From: Knoellia flava TL1 | GTDB taxonomy: Bacteria > Actinomycetota > Actinomycetes > Actinomycetales > Dermatophilaceae | Length of the DNA: 64,000 nucleotides | Reading direction: 5' to 3' | Assembly (NCBI RefSeq): GCF_000768675.1 | Contig: NZ_AVPI01000001.1 | Location: 62,001 to 126,000, forward strand | Shown: in pieces, positions 1,165 to 64,000 of the stretch | Layout of the letters: each line of letters starts with the position of its first letter | Numbering within the stretch: position 1 is the stretch's first letter | The notes under the pieces: generated by a model | The model's database searches: none | Seen by the model: the letters and a program-made list of their open reading frames with translations, nothing else | What the model was told of the DNA's origin: nothing | Program-made: the position numbers and the translations under genes

Positions 1165-1176
1165 GTATGCCGTCCG
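1165..1176 (+). repeat. Copy of the 12-mer GTATGCCGTCCG (intergenic)
   Basis: Exact copy of the over-represented 12-mer, between the thrE homologue and rpf. Confidence 0.7.
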
Positions 1177-1235
1177 CCCTCGCCATGCGCCCACCTCCGT
1201 CCGCCACCTCCCCCACGGCGAGGGCGGACAGCGGC

Positions 1236-2690
1236 TCAGACGCGGGCGCGGCGGCGCGCCCGGCCGACGCGGCTGTCCCACCGCGAGGCGACGATCTCGC
1301 CGAGCGTCGTCCCCGTCGCGATGGCGAGGAGGACGCCGGCCGCCCCGAGCAGGGTGGCGACACCGGCCTGGAACGACAGCGTGCCGATGGACGAGGCGCT
1401 CTCCCCCACGAGCTCGTAGAGACCACGGAAGATCGTCAGACCCGGCAACAGCCCGAACGTCGCCGGGACGACGACGACCATCGCCGGCGCCCCGAGCCGT
1501 AGCGCGACGAGCCGGCCGACGAGGCCGAGGCTCACGGCGGCGATCCCGGTCGCAGTCACCGACCCCACCTCGGCCACGCGGGTCAGGGCGGCGAAGACGC
1601 CGGTGCCGGCGAGCGAGAGGAGCGCCGTGGGCAGGAGGAGCCCGCGCCGACTCTGCATCGTGATCGCACCGCACGAGCCGACGATGAGCGAGCCGAGGAC
1701 GGCGGCCCACCACTCCGACTGCGAGGTCCGCAGGTCGAGCACCGACGGCGAGACGAAGGAGACGTCCAGGGCGTCGGTGAGCCGGATCGTCAGACCCAGC
1801 GCGACAGCGATGCCGATGATGAGGCCGGTGAGCGACACGATGACGGCGAGCAGACGGCCGGCGCCGGTCACGGCATACCCCGAGATGACGTCCTCGACCG
1901 CGGAGGCCATCGTCCGTCCGGGAAGGAGGGCGACGATGCCGCCGGCGACGATGAACGCGAAGTCCTTGCCCCCCACCGGTATCCACCCCATCGCACCTGC
2001 GGCGTAGGCGACCCAGGCGAGCAGGGTGGCGACGAAGGCCGAGACGGCGTTCGAGTAGAAGTCGGGCAGGCGCATCGGCCCCATCGCCCGCTCGACGGCG
2101 GAGACGCCGAGGACGACGAGCACGGTGAGGAAGCCGGTGAAGAGCGAGGCGCCGATCATCACAGCGACCGCGGCGGCGAGCATCGCCGTCGCGAGGGTCA
2201 CCGACCAGTCGGGCCAGGTCCGCGGGGTGCGCTTGAGGTCACGCAGCTGCTCGGTGGCCTCGTGCATCTCGATGTGACCGTTGACGAAGGCGTCGATGAG
2301 CTCGTGGACCGCGACGAGCCGCGCGTAGTCGTGCCGGGTCGAGCGGACGACGCGCAGCGCGGTGACCGAGTGGACCGCGTCGATCCGCGCGTGCACGAGC
2401 AGGGACTGGAGGGTGATGTCGATCTCGACGTCGTTGAGCCCGGCGGCGGCGCACACCGCGGCGACGGAGCCCTCGACTTGGGGCGCACCGGCACCGCAGC
2501 GCAGCATGAGCTCGCCGAGCCGCACCGCGAGCTCGAGCGCCTCACGGACCCGGGCCTCCTCGGCGCCCTCGCTCGCGACACGGGCGTTGCGGTAGGGCGT
2601 GCGCCGCAGCAGGTCGACGAGCGGCATCGGCTCGGTCGGCGGGCCACCCTGGAGCCGCCACTGCCGACGTCGGCGGACCTCGTCGCTCAC
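1236..2690 (-). CDS. Threonine/serine exporter family membrane protein (ThrE-like)
   Basis: A 484-residue protein with a cytosolic first part (residues 1-160, including LGELMLRCGAGAPQVE, typical of the ThrE / DUF1212 domain). Two blocks of about five membrane helices follow, the second matching the ThrE_2 (DUF3815) half. ThrE of Corynebacterium glutamicum exports threonine and serine driven by the proton gradient. I chose GTG 2690 over an upstream start at 2735 because GTGA overlaps the stop of the kinase gene, implying coupled translation. The tail is basic (RVGRARRRARV). The substrate is inferred from the family only. Confidence 0.85.
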   Translation of the reverse strand: MSDEVRRRRQWRLQGGPPTEPMPLVDLLRRTPYRNARVASEGAEEARVREALELAVRLGELMLRCGAGAPQVEGSVAAVCAAAGLNDVEIDITLQSLLVHARIDAVHSVTALRVVRSTRHDYARLVAVHELIDAFVNGHIEMHEATEQLRDLKRTPRTWPDWSVTLATAMLAAAVAVMIGASLFTGFLTVLVVLGVSAVERAMGPMRLPDFYSNAVSAFVATLLAWVAYAAGAMGWIPVGGKDFAFIVAGGIVALLPGRTMASAVEDVISGYAVTGAGRLLAVIVSLTGLIIGIAVALGLTIRLTDALDVSFVSPSVLDLRTSQSEWWAAVLGSLIVGSCGAITMQSRRGLLLPTALLSLAGTGVFAALTRVAEVGSVTATGIAAVSLGLVGRLVALRLGAPAMVVVVPATFGLLPGLTIFRGLYELVGESASSIGTLSFQAGVATLLGAAGVLLAIATGTTLGEIVASRWDSRVGRARRRARV

Positions 2691-4447
2691 GGGAGCGTGA
2701 GCCGGTCGGCCCACGCCGTGCCCGTGGGCCACCACGACGGTTCACCGGTGACGACACCGGCCGCGGCCACCGCGGCCGCGGTGACGAGGAGGAGCAGCAC
2801 GACGACCCGGCTGGCGCTCGGGCCCGGTGTGAGGCCGCGGACGATGCTGCGCGTCCCGCGCCGCACGCTCGCGCCACCCGGACCCCACCACGCCATGAGA
2901 CCGGCGAGGAGACCGCCGACAGCAAGCGGCACGAGCGCGTTGGGCTCGGGCGAACCCGTCCCCTGGACCGCGACGACCACGAGCGCCGCGCAGAAGACGC
3001 CCGAGACGGCGATGAGGGCGGGCATCACCGCGCCGAAGAGCGAGGCCAGCAGCCCCACGAGGAGGTGCCACGGGCCGGCGAGCACGGCGACGGGCACGTC
3101 ACTGCGCCGGACGCCTCGGTCGTGCCTGCGCATGATGAGCGAGGTCACCGAGCGGTCGGTCGTGCGCGCGAGCACGAGCCAGAGCAGCAGGCCGGCTGCG
3201 GCGACGACGGGTGCCGTCGCCGCCGCCGCGACGAGGACCGCGAGCAGGGCGCCGACGGTGCCGCTGCGGCTCGCACGGCCGATGCGCGGGTCGAGCCGTT
3301 GCTCGCCCGCCCACGGTGCGTTGCCGTCCTGCCCGTATGCCGTCCCGTCACCACCGGGGCCCGGTCCGAGCTGGTCGTGGCGCGGTCCGAAGACGAGGTC
3401 GGCGGGGTCCTGCCTCGCGGGCAGCAGGGTCTGCGCCGGCATCGGAGCCGGGCGGATCGGCGTCACGGGCGCGAGACCGGCGATCGGGGCCGCCGTGACG
3501 GCGCGGGACAACGGCATCACGGCCGTGCGTGGCACCGAGAAGGACTGGGTCGCGGCCGGCGGCGGCACCGGAGGGCGGACCTGGATGACGTCGGTGACGA
3601 GCCCGCCGTGGGCATAGCGCTCGAGTGCCGCGACGACATCGCGCTGGTCCGGCCGGTCCTGCGGGTCCGGCGAGAGCGCGGCATACAGGAGGGGCGAGAT
3701 CCGCTCGTCGACTCCGCGGAGGTCGGGGTCGCCCGTCGTGACGCGGTTGAGGACGACGTCCATCGGTCCGCGCCCGAAGGGCGGGTGCCCCGACGCGGCA
3801 TACGCGAGAGTGGCGGCCCAGCCCCACCAGTCGGTCGCGGGCGAGACCGGCTGGCCCTCGACGACCTCGGGCGAGAGGTAGCCGGGCGTGCCCATGACGA
3901 GGCCCGTCATCGTGAGGCGGATGTCGTCGGTGACGTGGGCGATGCCGAAGTCGATGACGACCGGGTCACCGTCGACCATGAGGACGTTGCCCGGCTTGAG
4001 GTCGCGGTGGACGACGTCGCTCTCATGGATGACGTCGAGCGCCTCGGCGAGGCCGCGCCCGAGGCGGTGCAGGTCGTCCGCGCCCATGGGACCGCTCGAC
4101 CCGACGACCTCGTCGAGCGGCGGGCCCGGGACGTAGCGGGTGACGATGAACGGGCGCTCGCCGTCGATGTCGGCGTCGATGACCGGTGCCACACGGGGGC
4201 TGCGGATGCGGCTCAACGTGTCGACCTCGCGCGAGAGCCGGGCGCGCGCGGCGGGGTCGTGCGCGACGTGTGGGCGCAGCACCTTGATGGCGACGGCCTT
4301 GCCCTGGCGGTCGAGGGCGAGGTGGACCACACCCATCCCACCCTCGCCGAGGCGCTGGACGAGGCGATAGGAGCCCAGCAGCGAGTGCTCGGGCAGGGCG
4401 TCCCTCCCCTCCGGCTCGTCGAGGATCTCGGCGGTCATGACAGACAC
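2687..4447 (-). CDS. Membrane-anchored Ser/Thr protein kinase
   Basis: A 586-residue Hanks-type kinase. The glycine loop GEGGMGVVH is at 34-42, the ATP lysine K55 in AIK, the catalytic HRDLKPGN at 147-154, DFG at 166-168, and GTPGYLSPE in the activation region. All catalytic residues are present. After residue 285 comes a proline/alanine-rich linker, then several hydrophobic helices (from about residue 395) and a very hydrophobic C-terminus. It lacks PASTA or other sensor repeats, so it differs from PknB. The start is GTG 4447 or ATG 4438; neither has a clear ribosome site. Its stop overlaps the ThrE-like exporter start, so the exporter is a candidate partner or substrate, by inference only. 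Confidence 0.88.
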   Translation of the reverse strand: MSVMTAEILDEPEGRDALPEHSLLGSYRLVQRLGEGGMGVVHLALDRQGKAVAIKVLRPHVAHDPAARARLSREVDTLSRIRSPRVAPVIDADIDGERPFIVTRYVPGPPLDEVVGSSGPMGADDLHRLGRGLAEALDVIHESDVVHRDLKPGNVLMVDGDPVVIDFGIAHVTDDIRLTMTGLVMGTPGYLSPEVVEGQPVSPATDWWGWAATLAYAASGHPPFGRGPMDVVLNRVTTGDPDLRGVDERISPLLYAALSPDPQDRPDQRDVVAALERYAHGGLVTDVIQVRPPVPPPAATQSFSVPRTAVMPLSRAVTAAPIAGLAPVTPIRPAPMPAQTLLPARQDPADLVFGPRHDQLGPGPGGDGTAYGQDGNAPWAGEQRLDPRIGRASRSGTVGALLAVLVAAAATAPVVAAAGLLLWLVLARTTDRSVTSLIMRRHDRGVRRSDVPVAVLAGPWHLLVGLLASLFGAVMPALIAVSGVFCAALVVVAVQGTGSPEPNALVPLAVGGLLAGLMAWWGPGGASVRRGTRSIVRGLTPGPSASRVVVLLLLVTAAAVAAAGVVTGEPSWWPTGTAWADRLTLP

Positions 4448-4549
4448 GGTATGCCGTCACCCTGAGCGGAACCTGTCCGAACCGCCGAGTGGGCATGGGG
4501 CGGGTGTGACCAGTGTGGCGAAGGGACCACGTCCCGGACGGCCCGTGAG

Positions 4550-5071: not shown

Positions 5072-5083
5072 CGGACGGCATAC
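5072..5083 (-). repeat. Copy of the 12-mer GTATGCCGTCCG (intergenic)
   Basis: Exact copy on the minus strand, between the divergent CBS and ABC ATPase genes, followed by a partial second copy (CGGCATGC). Confidence 0.7.
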
Positions 5084-6303: not shown

Positions 6304-6350
6304 GTCAGGGGTGCCAGGAGCCGGTATGCCGTGCTCCCGGCGCCCCTGAC
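6304..6350 (+). terminator. Strong hairpin after the ABC ATPase gene
   Basis: Arms of about 18 bp: GTCAGGGG, GCC and GGAGC pair with GCTCC, GGC and CCCCTGAC, with two unpaired positions. There is no U-run. The loop carries GTATGCC, the over-represented 7-mer. It lies 15 bp past the stop codon at 6288. Confidence 0.7.
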
Positions 6351-7726: not shown

Positions 7727-8476
7727 ATGTCCGAGCCGCACGACCCGAACCGACCGCAGGAGCCGGCGGAGCGACCTGCCTCGTCGTCGAGCGGGGGCTA
7801 CCAGCCTGAGCCGCCGTCGTGGTACCGCGAGCCCGGTGCACCGGGGCAGCAACCGCAGCAGCAGCCGTATGCCGGCGGCGCACCCTCGCAGCCCGCCTAC
7901 CAGGCCGCGCCGGGCTACCAAGCGGCCCCGGGCCTCAATCCCTATGGCGGCGCCCAGCAGGCGTGGCCGGGGTCCAAGGCCTACGTCGAGCAGCACTTCG
8001 GCCCGGTCGCCGGCTTCGGCAGCCGAGCCGGTGCGCTCATCATCGACACGCTGCTCACCCTGCTCGGCCTCATCCCCTTCATCCTCGGAGCGGTCCTGCT
8101 CGTCACCGCGGCACCGGACGTGGACGCCGCCGGCTACTCGGTGCCGGGCACCGCGGACGGAGGGCTGGCAGCGACGGGCGGCATCCTCATGGGCCTCGGC
8201 GTGCTGCTCATGATCGGCATCCAGATCTGGAACCGGATCTTCAAGATGGGCCGCACCGGCCAGAGCGTCGGCAAGAAGATGCTCGGCCTCAAGCTCGTCA
8301 ACGAGCAGAACGGCCAGCCGATCGGCGCGATGCAGTCGTTCCTGCGCGAGCTCGTCGGCGGCCTCATCAACCAGATCGTCTACCTCAGCTACCTCTGGAT
8401 GCTGTGGGACGACAACAAGCAGACCCTCGCCGACAAGGTCGTCCACTCGACGGTCATCGAGGTCCCCAAGTCCTGA
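7727..8476 (+). CDS. RDD family membrane protein
   Basis: A 249-residue protein. The first 85 residues are low complexity, rich in P, Q, G and Y (YRE, QQPQQQPY, GYQAAPG), and probably disordered. The RDD domain follows: RAGALIIDTLLTLLG opens the first membrane helix, helix two spans a region near residues 145-165, and the conserved tail GRTGQSVGKKMLGLKLV leads to a last helix (INQIVYLSYLWML) and LADKVV near the end. RDD proteins are small membrane proteins of mostly unknown role, some linked to Na+/H+ exchange. The start ATG 7727 has an AGGGGGA ribosome site. The gene ends just before a 73-bp palindrome. Confidence 0.85.
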   Translation: MSEPHDPNRPQEPAERPASSSSGGYQPEPPSWYREPGAPGQQPQQQPYAGGAPSQPAYQAAPGYQAAPGLNPYGGAQQAWPGSKAYVEQHFGPVAGFGSRAGALIIDTLLTLLGLIPFILGAVLLVTAAPDVDAAGYSVPGTADGGLAATGGILMGLGVLLMIGIQIWNRIFKMGRTGQSVGKKMLGLKLVNEQNGQPIGAMQSFLRELVGGLINQIVYLSYLWMLWDDNKQTLADKVVHSTVIEVPKS

Positions 8477-9452: not shown

Positions 9453-9596
9453 TCTTGGTCCCTCTCGACTCATGAGCTGTGGGGAGGTTCCCCCTGTCGG
9501 AAACCCGACTGCCGCACATCGTGGCACAGGTCCCGGTCGGGAGGAGGGCGACGCACGGGCCGACCTCGCATCGTGACGGCATACGGAATCCGCTGG

Positions 9597-10546: not shown

Positions 10547-11977
10547 CTACTCCCCTCGTCCTCGGGTCAACGACCAGCGGGCGCCGGCCGGGGTGTCCTC
10601 GATGGTGATGCCGGCCGCGGTGAGCTCGTCGCGGATGGCGTCGGACGTCGCCCAGTCGCGTGCCGAGCGTGCCGCGGTGCGGGCGGCGAGCCGCTCGCGC
10701 ACGAGCACGTCGAGGGCGGCGAGCGCGACCGTCGACGAGCTGTCGTCGCCCGACCACGACGGGTCGAGCGGGTTGACCCCGAGGACGTCGGTCATCGCGA
10801 CGACGACGGCGGCAACCTCCCGGGCCTCGTCGTTCTCGCCCTCGTCGAGCGCGGTGTTGCCCCGGGTCACGGCCTCGTGGACGGCGGCCAGCGCCCCGGA
10901 GACGCCGAGGTCGTCGTCCATCGCCTCGACGAAGTCGTCGGGCAGCTTCTCGTCGCCGGTCGGCACCGCGGAGCCCGAGCCCAGCGCGCGCCGCAGGAAG
11001 CCCTCGATGCGGTCGACCGCCGCCTCTGCCTCGGCGAGCGAGCCCTCGTGGAACTCGATCGTCGACCGGTAGTGCGCGGCGGTGAGGTAGTAGCGGACCG
11101 CGAGCGGGCGCGCCTTCTTGGTGACCTCGTGGATGAGCAGGCTGTTGCCGAGCGACTTGCTCATCTTCTCGCCACTGATCGTCACCCAGGCGTTGTGCAT
11201 CCACAGCGACGTGAACGGCAGGCCAGCCGCGCGCGACTGCGCCTGCTCGTTCTCGTGGTGCGGGAAGCGCAGGTCGACGCCGCCGCCGTGGATGTCGAAC
11301 GCGTCGCCGAGGTACTTGCGCGCCATCGCCGAGCACTCGAGGTGCCAGCCGGGGCGACCACGACCCCACGGGGTCGGCCAGCTCGCGGACGCGGGCTCGT
11401 CGGCCTTGGTCCCCTTCCACAGCGCGAAGTCGCGCGGGTCGCGCTTGCCACGCGGGTCGGCGTCCTCGGCCGCGGCCATGTCGTCGATCTTCTGGTTCGT
11501 CACTTCCCCGTATGCCGGCCACGACCTCACGTCGAAGTAGACGTCACCCGAGCCGTCCTCGGCGGGATAGGCGTGGCCGCGCTCGACGAGGGTCTCCATG
11601 AGCTCGACCATCTCGGTGATGTGGCCCATGGCGCGCGGCTCGTAGGTCGGCGGCAGCACGCCGAGCAGGCGCAGCGCCTCCGAGGTCGCGAGCTCGTTGC
11701 GGTAGGACAGGGCGAACCAGTCCTCACCCGACTCGGCCGACTTGCGAAGGATCTTGTCGTCGAGGTCCGTGACATTGCGGACGAGGGTGACGTCGTAGCC
11801 GTGGCCGCGCACGAGCCACCGGCGCAGCACGTCGAACGCGACGGCGAAGCGGACGTGGCCGATGTGCGGGGGTGCCTGCGTCGTGAGCCCACAGATGTAG
11901 ATCCCGACCCGGCCGGGCTGCAGCGGGGTGAAGTCGCGCAGGGCGCGCGACCGGGTGTCGAACAGTCTGAGAGTCAC
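10547..11977 (-). CDS. cysS: Cysteine--tRNA ligase
   Basis: A 476-residue class I aminoacyl-tRNA synthetase. The HIGH motif is in [15 protein letters not shown], the KMSKS motif in [10 protein letters not shown], and zinc ligands are suggested by IYICGLT near the N-terminus, WHLECSAM and the histidines of RFPHHENE. The C-terminal DALR-like domain closes the protein. It charges tRNA-Cys in the cytosol. I start it at GTG 11977 (VTLRLFDTR), the first position consistent with family alignments; the larger open frame covers an unrelated gene. It is followed after 2 bp by rlmB. Mycothiol biosynthesis uses a CysS paralogue, MshC; the full DALR-like end and the context favour the housekeeping enzyme. 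Confidence 0.93.
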
Positions 11978-12029
11978 CCGGCCAAGGGTACCGGCGGGCG
12001 AGCGCCGCCCCGACCACACGGCATACGGG

Positions 12030-13783: not shown

Positions 13784-13864
13784 TGGACCCTCCGTCGTGT
13801 CATTTTTCCGGTATGCCGGCCGCCCACCTCGGCGTGACCCACCCCGACGCTACCGCGAGCATGA

Positions 13865-16372: not shown

Positions 16373-16384
16373 CGGACGGCATAC
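16373..16384 (-). repeat. Copy of the 12-mer GTATGCCGTCCG upstream of carD
   Basis: Exact minus-strand copy about 30 bp upstream of the carD -10 box. Confidence 0.7.
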
Positions 16385-17098: not shown

Positions 17099-17121
17099 CG
17101 CCGCCCCTTCCCGTATGCCGG

Positions 17122-23852: not shown

Positions 23853-23886
23853 GGGGTCGGGGGCGGCCGGCATACGGGAGGGAAGG

Positions 23887-50310: not shown

Positions 50311-50374
50311 CGCCAGGCCGCGCACACGGCATACCCCCTGCACTTCGCACCCCAAGAGAGAAACGACAGCACCC

Positions 50375-51363: not shown

Positions 51364-52404
51364 ATGCAGGACTTCAGCGGCCTCCCCCAGCCCTTCGGGC
51401 GCGCCGAGGCGGCCGGCGCCGGCTTCACCGTCCGCGGGGTGGAGAGGGCTGCGGTCTCCGGTCACCTCACGCGCCTCGCCCCAAGCCTGTATGCCGTCCG
51501 CTCGGCCTGGGAGGAGCTCGCACCGTGGGTGCGGCACGCTCAACTGGCCCGGGCGGCGGTGCGACTCACACCGGATGCGATGGTGAGCCACCTCAGTCTG
51601 GCGGTCCTCATGGGACTGCCACACCCGGCATACACGGTCTCGAAGGTCTCCATGACGTTGCTCGACGACCGCAGGACCAGTCGAGCCGACGAGTGGCGCC
51701 AGTTCCATCGCGGGCGGACGCCACCCGGTCATGTGGTCGTGGCGAGCCGTCGTGCACACCTCACGCCGACGCGAACGGTCGTCGACTGCGCCCGCGACCT
51801 TCACCCACGAGACGCCCTCGCCATCATGGACGCTGCGATGCGCCGAGGGCTGACCTCGCTTCCTCAGCTGCGCGACATGCGCCGCCACCAGCGCCAGTTG
51901 CCGGGGATTTCCGGCGTCGACACGCTGCTCCGAATCTGCGATCCGCTGCGCGAGAACTGGCTGGAGTCAGCCTCGGCCTGGGCAGTCCATGCCTCCGGGC
52001 TTCCTGCCGGAGTGCCTCAGGTGACCGTCCTCGATGCGGCGGGGAGGTTCGTTGCACGGGTGGACGCGTTGTGGCCGGAGCTGGGCGTCGTCGGCGAGGC
52101 GGACGGCCGGGGCAAGTACGAGATCGGGGCGGAACCCGGTGAAGGCACAGACGTCTTCTCGATCATGCGGACGGCGATCCACGAACAGCGCGAGCGCGAG
52201 GACCGATTGGGAGACCTCGGACTCGTGGTCTGCCGGTGGGGGCAGCGCGATGCGCTGGCGATGACCCCGCTGGCGGACCGCCTGCGGTCAGCCATCGAGC
52301 GGGCCGAGCCCGCGCGGGTCACTGCCCGCTACCGGTGCTCATGCTGCAGCCGCGACCTGACTGATTGCGCAGGAGCGACACGAATCGCCCGTCTGGGGGC
52401 CTGA
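51364..52404 (+). CDS. AbiEi/DUF559-like protein flanked by palindromes
   Basis: A 346-residue protein. The N-terminal half shows a winged-helix-like layout (GLPQPFGRAEAAGAGFTVRG, LAPSLYAVRSAWEELAP, AMVSHLSLAVLMGLP), typical of type IV toxin-antitoxin AbiEi-like domains. The C-terminal half has a restriction-endonuclease-like DUF559 motif: FVARVDALWPELGVVGEADGRGKY and REREDRLGDLGLVVCRWGQ. Such proteins are abundant in actinobacteria with unproven function. The last 16 codons (DLTDCAGATRIARLGA) are encoded by the palindrome at 52358, so the repeat supplies the C-terminus. Start ATG 51364. Confidence 0.7.
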   Translation: MQDFSGLPQPFGRAEAAGAGFTVRGVERAAVSGHLTRLAPSLYAVRSAWEELAPWVRHAQLARAAVRLTPDAMVSHLSLAVLMGLPHPAYTVSKVSMTLLDDRRTSRADEWRQFHRGRTPPGHVVVASRRAHLTPTRTVVDCARDLHPRDALAIMDAAMRRGLTSLPQLRDMRRHQRQLPGISGVDTLLRICDPLRENWLESASAWAVHASGLPAGVPQVTVLDAAGRFVARVDALWPELGVVGEADGRGKYEIGAEPGEGTDVFSIMRTAIHEQREREDRLGDLGLVVCRWGQRDALAMTPLADRLRSAIERAEPARVTARYRCSCCSRDLTDCAGATRIARLGA

Positions 52405-52446: not shown

Positions 52447-53451
52447 TCAGAGGCCGATGATGAGCTTGAGGAGGAGGAAGGTGAGGGCGGCGACGATGCC
52501 GGCGCCGGGGAAGGTGAAGATCCACGCGCCGACGATGTTCTTGGCCACGCCCCAACGCACTGCCTTGACCGACTTCGTCGAGCCGACGCCCATGATCGCC
52601 GAGGTGATGGCGTGGGTCGTCGAGATCGGGGCACCCGTGGCGGTCGCAACGTAGAGCACGGCGGCAGCCGTCGTCTCCGCCGCGAAGCCCTGCGGCGGGT
52701 CGAGGTGGATGATGCGGCGGCCGAGCGTACGCATGATCCGCCACCCACCGGCATACGTGCCGGCGGAGATGACCACGGCGCTCATGACGAGGACCCACAA
52801 AGGGATCGCGTCGTCGCCCTCGGCGGCGAACCCACCGACCGTGAGCGCGAGCACGACGACACCGGCGGTCTTCGCGGCGTCCTGCATCCCGTGACCGAAC
52901 GCCATGGCGGCAGCGGACACGGTCTGCGCGTAGCGGAAGTTGCGGTTGACCTTGCCCGGGTGTCCACCCTTGAACAGCCACAGGATGGCCGTCATGACGA
53001 GGAAGCCCACGATGAGCCCGACGATCGGGGAGGCGATCATCGGCAGGATGACCTTCTCGAGCACCGCTCCCCAGTGCACGGTGGACGAGGCAGCGATCGC
53101 CGCCCCGCCGAGGCCGCCGATGAGGGCGTGCGAGGAGGACGAGGGCAGGCCGTACCACCACGTGAGCATGTTCCACGCGATGGCGCCGACGAGGCCGGCG
53201 GCACAGATCGTCAGGCCGACCTTGCCGGCGGGCGCGTCGATGATGCCGCTGCCGACCGTCTTGGCGACCTTGGTGCCGAGGAACGCTCCGGCGAGGTTGG
53301 CGATGGCCGCCATGCCGAGCGCGATGCGCGGGGTGAGGGCACGGGTTGACACCGACGTCGCGATCGCGTTCGCGGCGTCGTGAAAGCCGTTGGTGTAGTT
53401 GAAGCCCATCGCCAGCGCGACGACGAGGGCCACCGGGATCCAGCTCTCCAC
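52447..53451 (-). CDS. pit: Low-affinity inorganic phosphate transporter (PiT family)
   Basis: A 334-residue membrane protein of the PiT family with about 10 helices and the paired signatures GFNYTNGFHDAANAIATSVSTRAL (N-terminal) and AFGHGMQDAAKTAGVVVLAL (C-terminal), both with the conserved aspartate and asparagine or glutamine used for phosphate and cation. It imports metal-phosphate with protons or Na+. It follows the DUF47 gene after 5 bp. It is the low-affinity counterpart of pstSCAB in the same region. Confidence 0.92.
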   Translation of the reverse strand: MESWIPVALVVALAMGFNYTNGFHDAANAIATSVSTRALTPRIALGMAAIANLAGAFLGTKVAKTVGSGIIDAPAGKVGLTICAAGLVGAIAWNMLTWWYGLPSSSSHALIGGLGGAAIAASSTVHWGAVLEKVILPMIASPIVGLIVGFLVMTAILWLFKGGHPGKVNRNFRYAQTVSAAAMAFGHGMQDAAKTAGVVVLALTVGGFAAEGDDAIPLWVLVMSAVVISAGTYAGGWRIMRTLGRRIIHLDPPQGFAAETTAAAVLYVATATGAPISTTHAITSAIMGVGSTKSVKAVRWGVAKNIVGAWIFTFPGAGIVAALTFLLLKLIIGL

Positions 53452-54369: not shown

Positions 54370-54381
54370 GTATGCCGTCCG
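54370..54381 (+). repeat. Copy of the 12-mer GTATGCCGTCCG (intergenic)
   Basis: Exact copy in the long non-coding region, 40 bp from the 47-bp palindrome. Confidence 0.7.
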
Positions 54382-54470: not shown

Positions 54471-55112
54471 TCAGTCGAGCTCGTCGGCCCGCCACAGCCG
54501 GGCGCACGCGACGAGGTCCTCGCCGGTGCGTTGCATCGCCGCGGCGCTCGTCGTGAGGGCTCCGGCCCAGGCCGGGTCGGTGTCGTCGCGGTCGTGTGCG
54601 AGGTCGGCCCGGCCTGCGGCGACGACCGAAGCGAAGGCCGCCGCACGCTCCAGCGCGACCGCGAGGTCACCCTCGAAGACGCCCGTGAGGATCTCGTCCG
54701 CGAGCGACTTCACCTCCTCCGGACCCGGGGGCTCGGCCACCCCGGCGACGGCGTGGGCGACGTCGGTGTACCGCACCCCCGCGGCGTACTGCCTGCTCGC
54801 CTCGACCGGCTGGCGACGCACCCACTCGCGGACGGCATACAGGCGCCAGAGGGCACCGGGCAGGCTGCGCGCGGGTCGTCCGGCCCACAGGTCGGCGACC
54901 GTCGACAGGCCCAGCTCGTCGACGAGCGCGACGAGTCGTGCGGTGACCTCGGGGTCGTGGGCGGCTCGCCCGGTGCCGACGAGGACGGCGGCGGTCTGGT
55001 GGGCGATCTCGGTCGTCTCGGCGGGACCCGGAAGGGTGCCACCGTGCGCCTCGAGCGCGTCGGGACCGAAGTGCACGGGACGCCGAGGAAGGCTGCGGCC
55101 ACTGTCTGTCAC
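54471..55112 (-). CDS. Conserved hypothetical protein
   Basis: A 213-residue soluble, mainly helical protein. N-terminal part RRPVHFGPDALEAHGGTLPGPAETTEIAHQTAAVLV; middle LSTVADLWAGRPARSLPGALWRLYAVREWVRRQP; later FEGDLAVALERAAAFASVVAAGRADLAHD. I do not recognise the family. GTG 55112 is the first plausible start. It diverges from the crotonase gene across 29 bp. Steady codon use supports a real gene. It is followed by a family B palindrome. Confidence 0.7.
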   Translation of the reverse strand: MTDSGRSLPRRPVHFGPDALEAHGGTLPGPAETTEIAHQTAAVLVGTGRAAHDPEVTARLVALVDELGLSTVADLWAGRPARSLPGALWRLYAVREWVRRQPVEASRQYAAGVRYTDVAHAVAGVAEPPGPEEVKSLADEILTGVFEGDLAVALERAAAFASVVAAGRADLAHDRDDTDPAWAGALTTSAAAMQRTGEDLVACARLWRADELD

Positions 55113-55141: not shown

Positions 55142-56041
55142 ATGATGTCCACCGACGGCCCGCCCGCCTACGAGACCCTGCTCTGGGAGGTCTCCGACGA
55201 CGGGATCCTCACGCTCACGCTCCACCGGCCCGACGCGCTCAACGCCTTCACGGTGACGATGGCGCGCGAGCTCGAGGACGCCTTCAGGCGGGTCAACGAC
55301 AACGACACGGTGGCCGCCGTCGTCGTCACCGGCTCGGGGCGCGCCTTCTGCGCCGGAATGGATCTGTCGCGCGAGGGCAACGTCTTCGGGCTCGACGAGT
55401 CGCTGGCGCCGACGCTCGACGACATGCGCGAGCGCCTCGACTCCCCTGAGATCGCGGACGGCGTGCGCGACACCGGCGGTCGCGTCGTGCTCGCCATCTA
55501 TGACTGCACCAAGCCGGTCATCGCCGCGATCAACGGCCCCGCCGTCGGCATCGGCGCGACGATGACCCTGCCGATGGACGTGCGGCTCGCATCGACGTCG
55601 GCGCGGATCGGCTTCGTCTTCGGACGGCTCGGGATCGTGCCCGAGGCCTGCTCATCGTGGTTCCTGCCGCGGCTCGTCGGCATCTCGCGGGCGCTGGAAT
55701 GGACCTACTCCGCCGACGTCCTCACCGCCGAGGAGGCCCTCGACGGAGGCCTGCTGCGCTCGGTGGTGGAGCCGGAAGCGTTGCTGGACACGGCATACGG
55801 GCTCGCTCGTCGCTTCGTCTCGGGACGCTCGCCGGTCGCGACCGCACTGACCCGGCAGATGATGTGGCGCAACGCCGCTCAGCCGCACCCGCTCGAGGCG
55901 CACCGCGTCGACTCGCTCGCGATGTGGTGGACGAGCGTGCACGACGGCCGCGAAGGCGTGGCGGCGTTCCGCGAGAAGCGCGCGCCGGAGTTCACGTCCG
56001 CGGCATCGCGAGACTTGCCGAAGTGGTTGCCGTGGGACTGA
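55142..56041 (+). CDS. Enoyl-CoA hydratase/isomerase (crotonase) family protein
   Basis: A 299-residue crotonase-fold protein. Oxyanion-hole motifs FCAGMDLS near residue 70 and AINGPAVGIGATMTLPMDVRLAS near residue 130; the catalytic glutamate is likely the E in GIVPEACSSWFLPRLVG. It acts on an acyl-CoA, hydrating or isomerising the double bond in fatty acid or amino acid breakdown; substrate not predictable. Its last 10 bases overlap the DUF1810 gene. An extra loop (DESLAPTLDDMRERLDSPEIAD) is common in this subgroup. Confidence 0.88.
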   Translation: MMSTDGPPAYETLLWEVSDDGILTLTLHRPDALNAFTVTMARELEDAFRRVNDNDTVAAVVVTGSGRAFCAGMDLSREGNVFGLDESLAPTLDDMRERLDSPEIADGVRDTGGRVVLAIYDCTKPVIAAINGPAVGIGATMTLPMDVRLASTSARIGFVFGRLGIVPEACSSWFLPRLVGISRALEWTYSADVLTAEEALDGGLLRSVVEPEALLDTAYGLARRFVSGRSPVATALTRQMMWRNAAQPHPLEAHRVDSLAMWWTSVHDGREGVAAFREKRAPEFTSAASRDLPKWLPWD

Positions 56042-56454
56042 ACCGGTTCGTCGAGGCGCAGGACGCCGGCGGCACCTATGCGACGGCGCTCGCCGAGCTG
56101 CGCCGCGGCCGCAAGACGAGCCACTGGATGTGGTTCGTCTTCCCCCAGGTCGAGGGGCTCGGCCGCAGCGAGATGGCGCAGAGGTATGCCGTGTCGGGGC
56201 TTGCGGAGGCGCGCGCCTACCTCGCGGATCCCGTTCTCGGACAGCGGTTGCGCGAGTGCGCCGAGGTGCTGCTCGAGCTCGACGAGCCGGATGCGGTGGC
56301 GGTATTCGGGTCCGTCGACGCGATGAAGCTGCGGTCGTCGATGACGCTCCTCTCGTGCGCTGCGGAGGTCGAGCTCGACCGGGCGCTGTTCGACGGGGTG
56401 CTCGAGAAGTGGTTCGACGGCGAGCCGGACCCCGCGACCCTCGAGCTGCTGTGA
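56032..56454 (+). CDS. DUF1810 family protein
   Basis: A 140-residue soluble protein matching DUF1810: FVEAQDAGGTYATALAELRRGRKTSHWMWFVFPQVEGLGRSEMAQRYAV, then FGSVDAMKLRSSMTLL and EKWFDGEPDPATLELL. Function unknown. GTG 56032 overlaps the crotonase end by 10 nt, so it may be translated by coupling; the length fits the family. Confidence 0.85.
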   Translation: MGLNRFVEAQDAGGTYATALAELRRGRKTSHWMWFVFPQVEGLGRSEMAQRYAVSGLAEARAYLADPVLGQRLRECAEVLLELDEPDAVAVFGSVDAMKLRSSMTLLSCAAEVELDRALFDGVLEKWFDGEPDPATLELL

Positions 56455-57526: not shown

Positions 57527-60024
57527 GACTCCTCCTCGCTGGTCCCGATGCGTTCGTCGACAGCGGCTGACTCCCCACCCCGGGTCGCCTGGACGGACCC
57601 ACCCACGGGGCGGGAGGCGGTCGTCGTCGGCGCCGGGGCCGGGGTGCCGTCAGTGCGGGAGACGAGCGTGGCCGATGCCGCGGCCGTCTTGAAGATCGGC
57701 TGCTTGGACGCGGGGTCCCACTCGGTGATCGTGAGCTCGTTCGCCGCTCGGTCGCGCGCCGGCTGACCGCCGTTCTCACCGCCGTTCCCGCCGGCCGACG
57801 CTCCCGTGTCACCCGTGTCCCGGTCCCAGTAGCCGTAGTGGAACGGCAGGAAGAGCACGCCGTCCCGCACGCCACTCACCCGGACCCGTGCAGTCACCTC
57901 GCCGCGCGGGGTCGCCACGCGCAGCACGTCGCCCTCCGACCAGCCCTCGCGGGCGGCGTCGCGCTCCGACGCCTCGACCCACACCTCCGGCGCCGCCGCC
58001 GCGAGCTGCGGGGCGCGACCCGTCTTGGTGCGCGTGTGGAAGTGGTAGAGCGTCCGGCCGGTGATGAGCTGGTAGGGGTACTCCGCCGAGGGCAGCTCGT
58101 GCGGCGGCAGGTAGTCGGCGGACCGGAGGATCGCCCGGCCCTCCGGGTTGAGCGCCTTGTAGGCGTCGGCGTCCTCGGGGGCGCCGGTCACCATGTCCTT
58201 GCCGTAGCTCTCGCAGTCGTCCGGCGCGGCCCGGAACGCACCGTCCACGTAGATCCGCTCCGTGCCGTCGGGTGCGTCCTCGGTACACGGCCACTGGATG
58301 CCGCTCGGCCCACGCAGCTTCTCGTAGGTCATGCCCGAGTAGTCGCAGGGGCGTCCGCGGCTGCACTCCTTCCACGCCTCGAACGCCTCCTCGGGCGTGC
58401 TCCACTTGACGAGCGGGGCTCCGTCCTTGTCGCGCAGTCCGAGCCGGTGCGCGTAGTCGACGAGGATGTCGAGGTCCGGGCGGGCCTCGCCGGGCGGCTC
58501 GACGGCCTTCTCGGAGAGGTGGACCGTGCGGTCGACGTTGGTGAAGGTTCCGGTCTTCTCGCCCCAGGTTGCCGCCGGCAGCACGACGTCGGCGAGCTCG
58601 GCCGTCTCCGTGAGGAAGAGGTCCTGCACGACGAGGAACAGTCGGTCCTGCGACAGGATCGACCTGATCCGCTCGAGCTCTGGCAGCGAGACGGCCGGGT
58701 TCGTGCCGGTGACGTAGAGGAAGCGGATCGACCCGTCCTCGACGTAGCGCATGATCTGCATCGCATGGGTGGGCGACGTCCAGTGCGGGATGTCGGTCGG
58801 CTCGATGTTCCACACCTTCGCCAGTTCGGCGATGTGGCTCTCGTTGTGCCAGTTGCGGAACCCCGGCAGGTCGCCGTCCGCGCCGGCCTCGCGCGTGTTC
58901 TCGGCGGTCGGCTGGCCGTTCATCTGCAGGACGCCGCACCCGGGGCGCCCCAGCATCCCTCGCAGGATGTGGATGTTGTTCACCTGCACCGACGCGGCGG
59001 TCGCCTGGTGCGACTGGTAGAAGCCCTGCAGCACCGTCGACATCAGCCGCTCGGCAGTCCCGATGACCCGTGCCGCCTCGCGGACGTCCTCGACCGGCAC
59101 GTCGCAGACCTCGGCCGCGCGCTCCGGCGGGTACTTCGCCACGACCTTCTCGAGATCCGCGAGCCCCACCGCGTGCTTCTCCACGTATGCCGTGTCGACC
59201 CATCCGTTCTCGACGAGCTCGTGGATGAGGGCGTTGAGGAGCACGAGGTTGGTGCCCGGACGGGGAGCAAGGTGGACCGTCGCCCGCTCGGCGACCGGTG
59301 TCCGGCGCGGGTCGACGCAGACGAGCCGCGGTGGGTCCACGCCGTCGAGCCGGTCGAGCATGCGCGACCACAGCACGGTCTGCGTCTCGGCGACGTTGTG
59401 CCCGAAGAGTGCGATGACGTCTGCGTGGTCCACGTCCGTGTAGGAGCCGGGCTGGCCGTCGCATCCGAACGACTGCTTCAGTGCCTCCGCGGCGGTCGCG
59501 GTGCACAGGCGCGTGTTGCCGTCGACGTGGATCGTCCCGATCCCGCCGTGCGCGATGAGCCCGAGCGTGTAGTACTCCTCGAGGAAGAGCTGCCCGGTCG
59601 TGTAGAACGCGACCGAGCTCGGCCCGCGCTCCTCGAGGAGCTCTGTCGTGCGGCCGGCCACCGCCGCCATCGCGGTGTCCCAGTCGGTCTCGACGAGCCG
59701 GCCGTCGCGGCGGACGAGTGGTCTCGTCAGCCGGTCGGCGGACGCGTTCGCCTGCCACCCGAAGAGGTCCTTGGGTCCCAGTCGTCCGTGGTTGACGCGG
59801 TCACCGGCCCGGCCCCGGACACCGACGATCCGTCCGTCCTTGACGGCGATGTCCATGGCGTCGCCGTTCGAGTGCAGCAGCGAGGCCGACTGCACCCACG
59901 CGTCGACGTCGGACTCGGCCAGACCGTCCTCGAGGCGACAGTCGACCCTGACCGGCCACGGCTCCCCAACGGCATACGGTGTGCGGCTCCCCCACGGTTC
60001 GGCAATGCGGTCGATGGACGTCAC
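57523..60024 (-). CDS. Molybdopterin oxidoreductase lacking Fe-S cysteines
   Basis: An 833-residue protein of the nitrate reductase/formate dehydrogenase (BisC-NapA) superfamily. Related molybdopterin enzymes begin with a CxxCxxxC cluster motif; here the same segment reads ASLLHSNGDAMDIAVKDG, with S48, H51 and D55 in the places of the cysteines, so no [4Fe-4S] cluster is likely. The molybdenum ligand region NTRLCTATAAEAL keeps cysteine C174. The C-terminal half has the molybdopterin dinucleotide-binding domain (LITGRTLYHFHTRTKTGRAP, LPFHYGYWDRD). The GTG start is at 60024. The acceptor, donor and substrate are unknown. It is upstream of, and coupled to, the helical protein gene. Confidence 0.8.
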   Translation of the reverse strand: MTSIDRIAEPWGSRTPYAVGEPWPVRVDCRLEDGLAESDVDAWVQSASLLHSNGDAMDIAVKDGRIVGVRGRAGDRVNHGRLGPKDLFGWQANASADRLTRPLVRRDGRLVETDWDTAMAAVAGRTTELLEERGPSSVAFYTTGQLFLEEYYTLGLIAHGGIGTIHVDGNTRLCTATAAEALKQSFGCDGQPGSYTDVDHADVIALFGHNVAETQTVLWSRMLDRLDGVDPPRLVCVDPRRTPVAERATVHLAPRPGTNLVLLNALIHELVENGWVDTAYVEKHAVGLADLEKVVAKYPPERAAEVCDVPVEDVREAARVIGTAERLMSTVLQGFYQSHQATAASVQVNNIHILRGMLGRPGCGVLQMNGQPTAENTREAGADGDLPGFRNWHNESHIAELAKVWNIEPTDIPHWTSPTHAMQIMRYVEDGSIRFLYVTGTNPAVSLPELERIRSILSQDRLFLVVQDLFLTETAELADVVLPAATWGEKTGTFTNVDRTVHLSEKAVEPPGEARPDLDILVDYAHRLGLRDKDGAPLVKWSTPEEAFEAWKECSRGRPCDYSGMTYEKLRGPSGIQWPCTEDAPDGTERIYVDGAFRAAPDDCESYGKDMVTGAPEDADAYKALNPEGRAILRSADYLPPHELPSAEYPYQLITGRTLYHFHTRTKTGRAPQLAAAAPEVWVEASERDAAREGWSEGDVLRVATPRGEVTARVRVSGVRDGVLFLPFHYGYWDRDTGDTGASAGGNGGENGGQPARDRAANELTITEWDPASKQPIFKTAAASATLVSRTDGTPAPAPTTTASRPVGGSVQATRGGESAAVDERIGTSEEES

Positions 60025-60580: not shown

Positions 60581-61429
60581 TCACATCGGCAGTGGAACTC
60601 CCTTGTCCCGCAACGTGTGCGCCAGGGCGAGCAGCACCATCGAGACGAGGATCGATCCGAGGAAGCCGCGCAGACCGCTGATCCGCCGGTCGAGGGGCCG
60701 GTCGGGGCGGCGACGGATCCCGACGAGCTCGAGGACGGCATACGCGAGCACGCCGGAGGCGGCCGGAAGGGTGAGCGTCACCCAGAACCAGAACCACCGG
60801 GTCCCCACCCGCGGCGCCGGCCCCAGGACGAGGAACGCGAAGAGCGCCAGCCCACCGAACGACACGGCGTTGGTGACCCACGACCCCTCGGAGAACTCGA
60901 AGGGCTTCATCGGCACCTGGGCCTCGCGGAGCTGTCCGACGATGGCGGTGGACTCCTCCGTCGCGGGCTCCTGGTAGTCGTCACCCCTGCTGCTCACACC
61001 GGTGGACGAGGCGACCTGCCAGCCGGGGTCGCCCCAGGAGCGCCACACGAGGATGCCGCCGAGCGGGTCGCCCTTCGGCGGGAGATAGACACCCTCGCCC
61101 GTCTCGTCGAGGTCGCCACGCATCGTGGACGCCTGGGCACGCGTGAGGTCGAGTGGCCCCGACTCAAGCCGCTCGGCGGCGTACCACTGCTGGACCGAGC
61201 CGTCGGCGATGTCCCTCTGCAGCTGCTCGAAGGTCGAGGCCCGCAGTCCGGTCTGCCACGCGGATGCGAGGAGGACGGCGACGACCGCCACGACCACGCC
61301 GCCGAGGGCGACGACGAGGCGGTCGCGCCACCCAGCCCACGTGCGTGGTTGCTCCGGCGTCGCCGCGGGCGGCGCCGAGATCGGCGCCGCCGGGCCCTGC
61401 TTGGCCTCGTCCCCCACCCCGACCGTCAT
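60581..61429 (-). CDS. Membrane protein of unknown function
   Basis: A 282-residue protein: one N-terminal helix (VVALGGVVVAVVAVLLASAW), an outside domain (STFEQLQRDIADGSVQQWYAAERLESG, and VWRSWGDPGWQVASSTG), then three to four C-terminal helices (SFGGLALFAFLVLGPAP, WFWFWVTLTLPAASGVLAYAVLEL, FLGSILVSMVLLALAHTL). ATG 61429 is chosen; the frame is open to 61450. No family recognised. Confidence 0.7.
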   Translation of the reverse strand: MTVGVGDEAKQGPAAPISAPPAATPEQPRTWAGWRDRLVVALGGVVVAVVAVLLASAWQTGLRASTFEQLQRDIADGSVQQWYAAERLESGPLDLTRAQASTMRGDLDETGEGVYLPPKGDPLGGILVWRSWGDPGWQVASSTGVSSRGDDYQEPATEESTAIVGQLREAQVPMKPFEFSEGSWVTNAVSFGGLALFAFLVLGPAPRVGTRWFWFWVTLTLPAASGVLAYAVLELVGIRRRPDRPLDRRISGLRGFLGSILVSMVLLALAHTLRDKGVPLPM

Positions 61430-61511: not shown

Positions 61512-61871
61512 TCAGTCGAAGAGCTCGCCGAGGAAGGACTTCTTGCGGCGGTAGCCGGGCTGGCCGTAGTAGCCCCGGCCCGAGGTGGAGTAGCGCGGCG
61601 CGTGGCCGTAGGGCTGGGCCGCGGGCTGGCCGTAGGGGCCCTGCCCGTATGCCGGTTGCTGCGGCGCCGCTGCGGGCGGCGGTGCCTGCTGGGACTGCTG
61701 CCCCTGCTGGGAGGGCCCGGCGTAGTAAGCCGCCTCGGCGTTGACGAGCGCCTCGAGCTCACCACGGTCGAGGAAGAGGCCACCACAGCCGGTGCACTGG
61801 TCGACGTGGACCTGGTTGCGCTCGTAGCTGCGCATCTCGGATCCGCACTTGGGACACGTCAGGGTGCTCAT
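61512..61871 (-). CDS. TFIIB-type zinc-ribbon protein with Q/P/Y-rich tail
   Basis: A 119-residue protein with a zinc ribbon at the N-terminus: LTCPKCGSEM and CTGCGGLFLDRGELEAL (two CxxC pairs). The tail is disordered (QQGQQSQQAPPPAAAPQQPAYGQ, YGHAPRYSTSGRGYYGQPGYRRKK) and ends SFLGELFD. Matches the zf-TFIIB family of small bacterial proteins, whose function is unclear. ATG 61871. Downstream of the CPBP gene on the same strand. Confidence 0.83.
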   Translation of the reverse strand: MSTLTCPKCGSEMRSYERNQVHVDQCTGCGGLFLDRGELEALVNAEAAYYAGPSQQGQQSQQAPPPAAAPQQPAYGQGPYGQPAAQPYGHAPRYSTSGRGYYGQPGYRRKKSFLGELFD

Positions 61872-62682: not shown

Positions 62683-63675
62683 ATGACTTCCTCCCAGCAG
62701 CCTTCAGTCCTCGTGACGGGCGCGACCGGCTACATCGGGTCCCGTCTCGTGCCGGTGCTCCTCGACGCCGGGCTGCGGGTCCGCGTCCTCACCCGCTCCG
62801 CCGACCGGCTGCGCGCCCGTCGCTGGGCCGACGACGTCGAGGTCGTCGAGGGTGACGCGACCTCGCGCCAGGACCTCGACCGAGCCCTCGAGGGCATCGA
62901 CGTCGCCTACTACCTCCTGCACTCGATGGACGGCAAGGACGACTTCGAGCAGCGCGATCGCGACCTCGCCCGCACCTTCGGGCTCGCCGCGCAGGGTGCC
63001 GACGTCGGCCGCATCGTCTACCTCTCCGGGTTGCACCCCGACAGTGGCCACCTCTCCCCCCACCTCGCGTCTCGGGTCGAGGTCGGTGACCTGCTCATGG
63101 CCTCGGGCGTGCCCACGGTGGTGCTCCAGGCAGCGATCATCATCGGCTCGGGGTCGGCGTCGTTCGAGATGCTGCGCCACCTCACCCGCAAGCTGCCGGT
63201 CATGGTGACGCCGAAGTGGGTCAACAACCGGATCCAGCCGATCGCCATCGCCGACATCCTCCACTACCTCGTCGGTGCGGCGACCGTCGAGGGCGACGTC
63301 AACCGCACCTTCGACGTGGGCGGGCCCGAGGTCCTCACCTACCGCGAGATGATCCAGCGCTTCGCCCGCGTCGCCGGGCTGCGAGAGCGGGCGATCCGCA
63401 CCGTCCCCGTCCTCACCCCGGGCCTCGCGAGCCACTGGGTCGGGCTCGTCACCCCCGTGCCGTCGGGCATCGCCAAGCCGCTCGTCGGCAGCCTCATCCA
63501 CGAGGTCGTCTGCCAGGAGGACGACATCGACGACGTCGTCGGACCCCCGCGGGGCGGCAAGACGGGCTTCGACGACGCCGTCCGCGCGGCGCTCGACGGT
63601 GCCAAGGACCGCCCCGAGCCGGGCACGGTTGACCCGGCCCGGCTCACGGCCGCCGACCCCGACTGGGCCGGCTGA
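62683..63675 (+). CDS. NAD(P)H-binding epimerase-like protein
   Basis: A 330-residue Rossmann protein: TGATGYIGSRLVPVLLDAGLRVRVLTRS at the N-terminus, VEGDATSRQDLDRALEGIDVAYYLLHSM, then NRIQPIAIADILHYLVGA and FDVGGPEVLTYREMIQRFA. Typical of extended or atypical SDRs of the NmrA/DUF2867-linked type. Substrate unknown. Three starts are possible (62659, 62674, 62683); ATG 62683 has a weak -10-like GACGAT 7 nt upstream and the best position before the glycine loop. Faces the cyclopropane synthase end. Confidence 0.8.
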   Translation: MTSSQQPSVLVTGATGYIGSRLVPVLLDAGLRVRVLTRSADRLRARRWADDVEVVEGDATSRQDLDRALEGIDVAYYLLHSMDGKDDFEQRDRDLARTFGLAAQGADVGRIVYLSGLHPDSGHLSPHLASRVEVGDLLMASGVPTVVLQAAIIIGSGSASFEMLRHLTRKLPVMVTPKWVNNRIQPIAIADILHYLVGAATVEGDVNRTFDVGGPEVLTYREMIQRFARVAGLRERAIRTVPVLTPGLASHWVGLVTPVPSGIAKPLVGSLIHEVVCQEDDIDDVVGPPRGGKTGFDDAVRAALDGAKDRPEPGTVDPARLTAADPDWAG

Positions 63676-63702
63676 GCGACGACCCCGCCGCCCGGCCGCG
63701 GG

Positions 63703-64000
63703 TCAGTCGCGGCGCATCGTCACCTGGGCGACGTCGAGGTAGCCGGACGCGAACCCCGCCTCGCAGTAGGCGAGGTAGAACTCCCACATCCGCTTGAACG
63801 TCTCGTCGAAGCCGCCGCCCTCGATCCGCGGCCACGCCTCGAGGAACTGCATCCGCCACCGGCGCAGCGTCTCGGCGTAGTCGCCGCCGAACGCCCGGAC
63901 CCCGCGCACCCGCAGACCCGTATGCCGTCCGGTCACCTCCGAGATCGCGTCCAGCGACGGGATGAGGCCACCGGGGAAGATGTACTTCTGGATCCAGCCG
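63703..64000 (-). CDS. Cyclopropane-fatty-acyl-phospholipid synthase (3' part, truncated by window end)
   Basis: Only the last 99 codons lie in the window; the gene continues beyond position 64000. Visible residues include WIQKYIFPGGLIPSLDAI, typical of the CFA synthase family, and LRRWRMQFLEAWPRIE with WEFYLAYCEAGFASGYLDVAQ near the C-terminus. The enzyme adds a methylene or methyl group from SAM to unsaturated acyl chains in phospholipids. A 12-mer copy (63920-63931) lies inside the gene. Confidence 0.85.
   Translation of the reverse strand, partial: GWIQKYIFPGGLIPSLDAISEVTGRHTGLRVRGVRAFGGDYAETLRRWRMQFLEAWPRIEGGGFDETFKRMWEFYLAYCEAGFASGYLDVAQVTMRRD

Follow-up and report, generated by a model that had tools for sequence, protein, structure and literature searches.

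A non-palindromic octamer with orientation-dependent spacing in Knoellia flava TL1 and its family, probably a DNA uptake signal

The 64,000-nucleotide stretch of Knoellia flava TL1 studied here (contig NZ_AVPI01000001.1, positions 62,001 to 126,000; hereafter the window) carries many copies of the word GTATGCCG. The pattern is real, strong and under DNA-level selection, and it belongs to one actinobacterial family, the Intrasporangiaceae/Dermatophilaceae; Knoellia is a genus of Intrasporangiaceae (Micrococcales). We propose that GTATGCCG probably serves, in this family, as the signal by which a natural transformation system recognises DNA of its own kind for uptake. In every genomic respect examined the motif looks as an uptake signal would, and the function is proposed from that likeness. 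As in known uptake sequences, we observe abundance, an unbiased presence on both strands, depletion in an island and dialects that change with phylogeny. A 2016 review names two families with sequence-specific DNA uptake, Pasteurellaceae and Neisseriaceae (PMC5031613). Among the matches listed, in a literature search that lay outside subscription journals and preprints, none dealt with GTATGCCG or with an uptake sequence in actinobacteria or other Gram-positives.

The first-pass annotation of the window had placed a 12-mer, GTATGCCGTCCG, at thirteen positions, all of which proved exact (13 copies; shuffle mean 0.01). Its rougher figures also stood: the 10-mer GTATGCCGTC, put at about 21 copies, occurs 21 times (order-2 expectation 0.10), and GTATGCC, put at about 57 copies with a strand split of about 30 and 27, occurs 57 times, 27 on the plus and 30 on the minus strand (shuffle mean 1.66). 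G directly follows GTATGCC in 56 of the 57 copies and the core is therefore GTATGCCG, which differs from its own reverse complement and is thus not palindromic. Among 202 copies from the same genome the next base is T in 61% and G in 26%, followed by C, C and G; TCCG is a softer flank, a preference beside the core.

The enrichment is not confined to the window. The assembly (3,561,699 bases, 94 contigs) holds 2,541 copies of GTATGCCG, or 0.71 per kb, 1268 forward and 1273 reverse; the reversed word, used as control, has 94 (44 and 50). The strands also balance locally on contig C1, at 15/14 in 60 kb and 74/74 in 184 kb. Every stretch sampled from this genome (the window plus 11 others, 278,573 bases and 202 copies in total) holds the word, with the lowest number where part of a low-GC island lies. 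A chromosome-organisation or segregation site (resembling those of KOPS, the FtsK-orienting polar sequences, or of matS, SMC or Noc) would fit the even spacing described below, and Karlin's proposal for the uptake signal sequence (USS), a role in replication, repair or compaction, is reported in PMC1939737. The missing local strand polarity speaks against KOPS, the presence in every sampled stretch, fewest at the island, speaks against such sites generally, and single-base dialects within one family together with absence from sister lineages would be unexpected; we consider this explanation distinctly improbable.

Genes in the sample were called with a simple codon-based caller (277 genes, 84% coverage), and 151 of the 202 copies lie within them, 51 outside; for the window the figure is 34 of 56 copies within 70 called genes, in line with the annotation's remark that copies are both genic and intergenic. 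Most genic copies encode Tyr-Ala or Ala-Tyr, as the annotation also had it: Tyr-Ala (TAT GCC) in 71 of 81 sense copies and Ala-Tyr (GCA TAC) in 53 of 70 antisense copies. In a GC-rich genome the word could in that light arise as a by-product of amino-acid or codon-pair composition. When synonymous codons were shuffled with the proteins kept (30 shuffles), however, genic copies fell to a mean of 6.0 and a maximum of 12 against the 151 observed, and because of this result we regard the by-product explanation as refuted, its probability being close to nil. The copies outside called genes stand against it too, as does the synonymous neighbour GTACGCCG, which is below expectation in genes (12 observed, 43 expected). 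Synonymous shuffling is the proper control here; depletion of one-mismatch words was not used, the order-2 background having included the motif. The codons concerned are otherwise rare, with 132 TAT to 1222 TAC and 604 GCA to 5527 GCC, and 71 of the 132 TAT codons sit inside the motif. Tyr-Ala followed by a G-starting codon is written TAT-GCC in 71 of 84 cases after G and in 7 of 43 after C. Selection on the DNA thus overrides codon bias, as the annotation had supposed. Between genomes, in genes at least 55% identical at the protein level, the congener G003 has the identical word at 13 of 16 aligned genic copies, and two motif-less genomes have it at none (0/12 in G103, 0/7 in G089), several of these sites keeping the residues through another codon.

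Copies lie on average about 1.25 kb apart, but contig C1 contains no GTATGCCG between 30,273 and 49,623; this gap measures 19,350 bp, compared with 8,116 bp for the second longest. The gap coincides with the low-GC island, at about 31–56 kb (L022, L023; GC 0.625–0.678 from about 32 to 56 kb, neighbours about 0.70–0.74), whose left edge has an integrase-core gene (rve, HTH_21), by reading of the IS3 type. The motif is depleted in acquired DNA, as are uptake sequences, in this single island. The island also holds DUF6994, a TY-Chap2 domain, an OmpA-family domain and a 1475-residue open reading frame (ORF) with weak beta-propeller matches.

The arrangement of copies depends on their orientation. 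Neighbouring copies are opposite in direction in 141 of 198 pairs in the K. flava genome (P = 2e-9) and in 241 of 395 pairs in other GTATGCCG genomes and loci, each region being counted once (P = 1.4e-5). Within the 184-kb stretch (148 copies) the 74 plus copies have a mean spacing of 2,455 bp with a coefficient of variation (CV) of 0.50, and the 74 minus copies 2,465 bp with a CV of 0.58; random placement gives a CV of 0.98, and none of 5000 simulations reached either observed value. Sliding one strand's set along the other yields an alternation of 103 ± 4 against 107 observed (P = 0.22), and plus and minus copies therefore look like two independent regular series. The per-strand CVs in 80 kb of G003 are 0.74 and 0.54.

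Pairs of copies were then pooled (771 copies, 1.118 Mb, 500 simulations) in bins of 30–100, 100–250, 250–500 and 500–1000 bp. Same-orientation pairs are deficient in all four, at 7/19.3, 17/42.3, 33/69.8 and 83/136.9 observed/expected (P printed as 0.000 in each bin); beyond 1.5 kb their number is close to expectation. Opposite pairs are not avoided and show a slight excess in three of the four bins (31/20.5, 35/44.3, 91/73.8, 174/145.9). The same-orientation counts without the K. flava genome (573 copies) are 5/14.5, 12/31.1, 30/50.2 and 69/100.1. Four other frequent 8-mers showed no consistent avoidance, with a single low bin for one word (11/19.4), nor was there consistent same-orientation avoidance for GTACGCCG in motif-less genomes; the GTATGCGG sample, at 27 copies, is too small for an orientation effect. 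Avoidance limited to the same orientation implies that function depends on orientation: near a first copy, within about 1 kb, another one facing the same way contributes little, and an opposite copy is no substitute.

Such one-way behaviour brings in the main rival, a recombination signal resembling Chi. In this case a helicase-nuclease that resects DNA ends, of the AdnAB type, would read the motif one way and switch to recombination, and each orientation would be needed separately because both ends of a break are processed. Like Chi (GCTGGTGG and others), GTATGCCG is a short non-palindromic word with one-way reading, and Chi words vary from species to species. An orientation-dependent function, a range of about 1 kb and equal strand numbers would all fit. 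The annotation had argued from strand balance against both Chi and KOPS; this holds for KOPS and for a Chi like that of E. coli, but not for a Chi-like signal serving both break ends. In 400 kb of E. coli MG1655 the 103 Chi sites divide 62/41 between strands and are clustered (20 same-orientation pairs at 500–1000 bp, 6.8 expected), whereas GTATGCCG is neither unbalanced (1268/1273) nor clustered. RecC as reader was rejected, with no match in the nine genomes searched of the window's genus (0/9), and elsewhere it occurs both with and without the motif. A housekeeping enzyme, moreover, predicts neither the absence of its signal from several sister lineages nor such an override of codon choice. 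Whether Chi regulates AdnAB was unknown in 2016, according to PMC4824097, which leaves room for the idea; on balance we think it unlikely.

A second rival is a word kept by DNA methylation or by mutation or repair bias, with no role in DNA transfer, after the manner of HIP1 (highly iterated palindrome), a palindromic octamer that is over-represented and patchy in cyanobacteria. The very high over-representation of GTATGCCG and its patchiness between genera recall HIP1, but GTATGCCG is not palindromic, and neither mutation nor methylation explains avoidance of same-orientation copies only, up to about 1 kb. We hold this to be highly improbable.

Within the family, 80 of 149 genomes carry at least 800 copies of GTATGCCG, 15 carry 150–799 and 54 fewer than 150. 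A phylum sample of 198 genomes, three of them in the family, gave a maximum of 386 copies among the 195 outside it; none of these reached four times its own reversed-word control, though some lay at two to nearly four times. Among 79 named actinobacterial loci, 72 were long enough for a word scan. GTATGCCG is the top 8-mer in 12 of the 72, joint top in L048 (Intrasporangium oryzae) and second, after GAATGCCG, in L044, a Phycicoccus metagenome-assembled genome (MAG). These 14 loci bear Intrasporangiaceae names (Knoellia, Phycicoccus, Intrasporangium, Arsenicicoccus, Tetrasphaera, Humibacillus, Ornithinimicrobium, Terrabacter) or belong to unplaced actinobacterial MAGs. In the other 58 scanned loci the word is outside the top three, even in L042 (uncultured Phycicoccus), L054 (Intrasporangium flavum) and L076 (Ornithinimicrobium).

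Word counts made de novo in the named loci and in sampled genomes brought up one-base variants, and genome-wide counts of these gave four dialects, GTATGCCG, GGATGCCG, GAATGCCG and GTATGCGG, with two dialects together in some genomes. GGATGCCG and GTATGCGG were counted in the same 73 genomes (for GGATGCCG without G099 and G136). GGATGCCG reaches 4,480 copies in G122, 3,949 in G047, 3,838 in G085, 3,816 in G024 and 2,195 in G065, the next genome having 1,336 (control 310). GTATGCGG marks three g34 genomes, G041 (1,204), G130 (988) and G086 (878), ahead of 459 (control 312) in the next. GAATGCCG, counted in all 149 genomes, has 3,135 copies in G020 (control 27), 730 in G072 (22) and 388 in G064 (5), followed by 352 (51). 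G065 holds two dialects, with 1,217 GTATGCCG beside its GGATGCCG, and so does G020, with 1,025 GTATGCCG beside its GAATGCCG.

These states were placed on a ComEC tree of 52 rows built by a quick method (27 of 48 inner branches starred, 13 open); it is a single gene tree and possibly not the species tree. GGATGCCG occupies two separate places, each near GTATGCCG relatives. Genomes labelled motif-less stand beside motif-rich ones in the pairs G089/G046, G142/G118, G049/G146 and g2 genomes/g58, and less well supported in G101/G132 and G044/G012. The tree requires no fewer than 13 changes of motif state, a count that does not separate gain from loss and leaves out G065, G136 and G123 (mixed or weak signal) and the outgroups. 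G101 bears the motif-less label but contains 189 GTATGCCG (control 41), which we therefore take as a remnant.

Further words were considered as dialects. GTACGCC(G) in g37, g38, g54 and g62 was dropped because it is also raised in Kribbella and Nocardioides loci and looks like codon context, and GTACGGCG in G089 (56 against 18 in genes) was discounted in the same way. CGATGCGG in g9 (G078; L039, L154) is a weak candidate, at 29 against 7.3 in 40 kb. Also raised are CGAAGGGG in g51 (36 against 5.6; G058; L202, L203), GGACGCCG in an actinomycete MAG (27 against 4.3; L119) and CTAGCAGA in g8 (12 against 0.07; L215–L216). No motif of comparable strength was found in G142 or in one-genome samples of g2, g3, g7, g10, g11, g14, g15, g42, g52, g55, g59 and g63, the samples being of 40–140 kb, without g50, such that a rarer motif could escape; in the 40-kb sample of G023 the motif is below the top of the word list.

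Genes that could serve uptake are present in the family. comEC was found in 145 of the 149 genomes, and the four misses are assemblies of 330–760 contigs, of which three are motif-rich; 147 genomes have a TadA-family match, 135 of these above the family cut-off. In the K. flava genome comEA (SLBB and helix-hairpin-helix domains) directly precedes comEC, whose product has its best named match in Knoellia remsis (73%). The genome also carries a tad locus, in which small genes are named Flp-, TadE- and TadF-like by reading; the locus occurs in motif-rich and motif-poor genomes alike (13 of 20 tad regions compared). Another actinobacterium, Micrococcus luteus, transforms by means of Flp pili and needs two tad loci (PMC4322843). 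Between tadC and the Flp-like gene of the K. flava locus (L144 12219–13597) we note by eye genes for a sortase-like protein and a putative secreted protein of 186 residues; a congener carries different genes at that position and has a second tad locus. The accessory tad locus of G003 (TadC query), tried as a motif switch, does not track the motif. The comEC of motif-less G089 (L032, about 9066–11428) matches in two frames and may be broken near the part encoding the C-terminus.

Several observations weigh against an uptake function. Neither comEC nor TadA can be the switch for the motif; both occur with and without it (145/149 and 147/149) and there is therefore no gene found that tracks it. 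PilM, the marker of type IVa pili, is present in only 5 of 149 genomes, which makes a ComP-like pilin unlikely, with no receptor candidate in its place. Same-orientation avoidance is weak or absent for GGATGCCG (131 copies), at 18/12.7, 13/15.2 and 21/29.3 in bins of 30–250, 250–500 and 500–1000 bp. In G046/G115, which bear the motif but are more distant, identity extends to only 2 of 13 aligned GTATGCCG sites. The matches listed include no report of competence or preferential uptake in Intrasporangiaceae/Dermatophilaceae. Uptake in Haemophilus influenzae, finally, is described as independent of USS orientation (PMC1939737); the spacing here therefore needs something more, either directed import of a strand or flank or a one-way reader.

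A mechanism can be sketched for the uptake signal. Extracellular DNA bearing the motif would be bound by a protein on the cell surface, most likely one belonging to the Tad/Flp pilus or to ComEA/ComEC import. Recombination of the imported DNA would spread and maintain the motif, which may thus build up genome-wide against codon preference. Changes in the receptor would shift the motif by one base and yield dialects, and loss of the system would let the motif decay. Reading in one direction, for example if orientation fixes the strand or flank entering through ComEC, would favour an evenly spaced series for each orientation. We infer the uptake itself, a receptor, the link to comEC and tad, and loss in the sister lineages rather than a motif never present there.

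The annotation's comparison with DNA uptake sequences (DUS) gains from the abundance, both strands, codon override, near-absence from the island, dialects and sister absence, and lacks a receptor. Neisseriaceae DUS likewise run to thousands of copies, have dialects that follow phylogeny, some one base apart, and are under-represented in inserted DNA; their mean spacing is about 1.1–1.5 kb against 1.25 kb here (PMC3630211, PMC2397512). Two dialects in one genome, as in G065 and G020, are described for S. muelleri (PMC3630211). The hosts here differ, being monoderm actinobacteria with PilM in 5 of 149 genomes and no ComP, and copies of their motif avoid others in the same orientation but not opposite ones. 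The word is also another: Neisseria uptake requires a CTG core (PMC3630211), which the family's GNATGC(C/G)G is without. The annotation had noted a likeness to the Neisseria sequence ATGCCGTCTGAA that might be chance, and it is probably just that, because the TC part is local flank that varies between genera and the CTG core is absent. Pasteurellaceae USS show significant even spacing, though less even than a compaction site needs; that word is unrelated, and its uptake is orientation-independent where spacing here is orientation-dependent (PMC1939737). M. luteus is likewise an actinobacterium, comEA, comEC and tad genes being present in K. flava, and a text search of PMC4322843 turned up no sequence-specific uptake.

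The 56 copies in the window are listed in Table 1 by exact word position.

Table 1. Copies of GTATGCCG in the window (window coordinates)
Feature	Position	Strand	Remark
GTATGCCG with full GTATGCCGTCCG	1165..1176	+	exact 12-mer
GTATGCCG	1871..1878	-	
GTATGCCG	3335..3342	+	
GTATGCCG	3679..3686	-	
GTATGCCG	3796..3803	-	
GTATGCCG	4449..4456	+	
GTATGCCG with full GTATGCCGTCCG	5072..5083	-	exact 12-mer
GTATGCCG	6324..6331	+	
GTATGCCG	7867..7874	+	
GTATGCCG	9577..9584	-	
GTATGCCG	11510..11517	+	
GTATGCCG	12019..12026	-	
GTATGCCG	13811..13818	+	
GTATGCCG	15057..15064	-	
GTATGCCG with full GTATGCCGTCCG	16373..16384	-	exact 12-mer
GTATGCCG	17113..17120	+	
GTATGCCG with full GTATGCCGTCCG	20016..20027	-	exact 12-mer
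GTATGCCG	20092..20099	+	
GTATGCCGTCCG	22070..22081	-	exact 12-mer; left half of close inverted pair with 22092
GTATGCCGTCCG	22092..22103	+	exact 12-mer; right half of close inverted pair with 22070
GTATGCCG	23868..23875	-	
GTATGCCG	24401..24408	+	
GTATGCCG	27225..27232	-	
GTATGCCG	28329..28336	-	
GTATGCCG	28633..28640	+	
GTATGCCG	30354..30361	-	close inverted pair with 30370
GTATGCCG	30370..30377	+	close inverted pair with 30354
GTATGCCG	32468..32475	+	
GTATGCCG	32563..32570	-	
GTATGCCG	33433..33440	+	
GTATGCCG	34761..34768	-	
GTATGCCG with full GTATGCCGTCCG	35530..35541	+	exact 12-mer
GTATGCCG	37646..37653	+	
GTATGCCG	38251..38258	-	
GTATGCCG	38299..38306	-	
GTATGCCG	38981..38988	+	
GTATGCCG	41128..41135	+	
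GTATGCCG with full GTATGCCGTCCG	41474..41485	-	exact 12-mer
GTATGCCG	41680..41687	-	
GTATGCCG with full GTATGCCGTCCG	43045..43056	-	exact 12-mer
GTATGCCG	43409..43416	+	
GTATGCCG	46556..46563	-	
GTATGCCG	46620..46627	+	
GTATGCCG	50327..50334	-	
GTATGCCG with full GTATGCCGTCCG	51489..51500	+	exact 12-mer
GTATGCCG	51626..51633	-	
GTATGCCG	52749..52756	-	
GTATGCCG with full GTATGCCGTCCG	54370..54381	+	exact 12-mer
GTATGCCG with full GTATGCCGTCCG	54829..54840	-	exact 12-mer
GTATGCCG	55791..55798	-	
GTATGCCG	56184..56191	+	
GTATGCCG	59185..59192	+	
GTATGCCG	59970..59977	-	
GTATGCCG	60736..60743	-	
GTATGCCG	61647..61654	+	
GTATGCCG with full GTATGCCGTCCG	63920..63931	+	exact 12-mer

Separately, the window contains three near-perfect hairpins of 73 bp (8488–8560, 30943–31015 and 40196–40268) with ends like CGACTTATTGCG...CGCAATAAGTCG and, as RNA, energies between −51.8 and −55.8 kcal/mol; stretches of G003 and G103 also contain the 12-base end. 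Terminal inverted repeats of 23 bp, of the same kind as the hairpins, bound a 1.25-kb segment at 51178–52430, whose four ORFs have no Pfam match. This segment resembles a small mobile element, and the hairpins could be solo ends of such elements.

The wider reading, to which we give even chances, is that the motif represents a third, independently evolved and first Gram-positive family of uptake signals, orientation-specific and with at least four single-base dialects, in which the signal would pick the strand or flank imported at a single membrane. The orientation-dependent spacing makes a role of the signal after binding testable from genome sequence. Pasteurellaceae and Neisseriaceae are both Gram-negative, and a third case in monoderm actinobacteria would, if true, be convergent species-specific bacterial sex. 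The whole family would then offer a natural setting in which to study how dialects change and are lost, and competence would be predicted for genera of soil and wastewater, among them Knoellia, Phycicoccus and Tetrasphaera.

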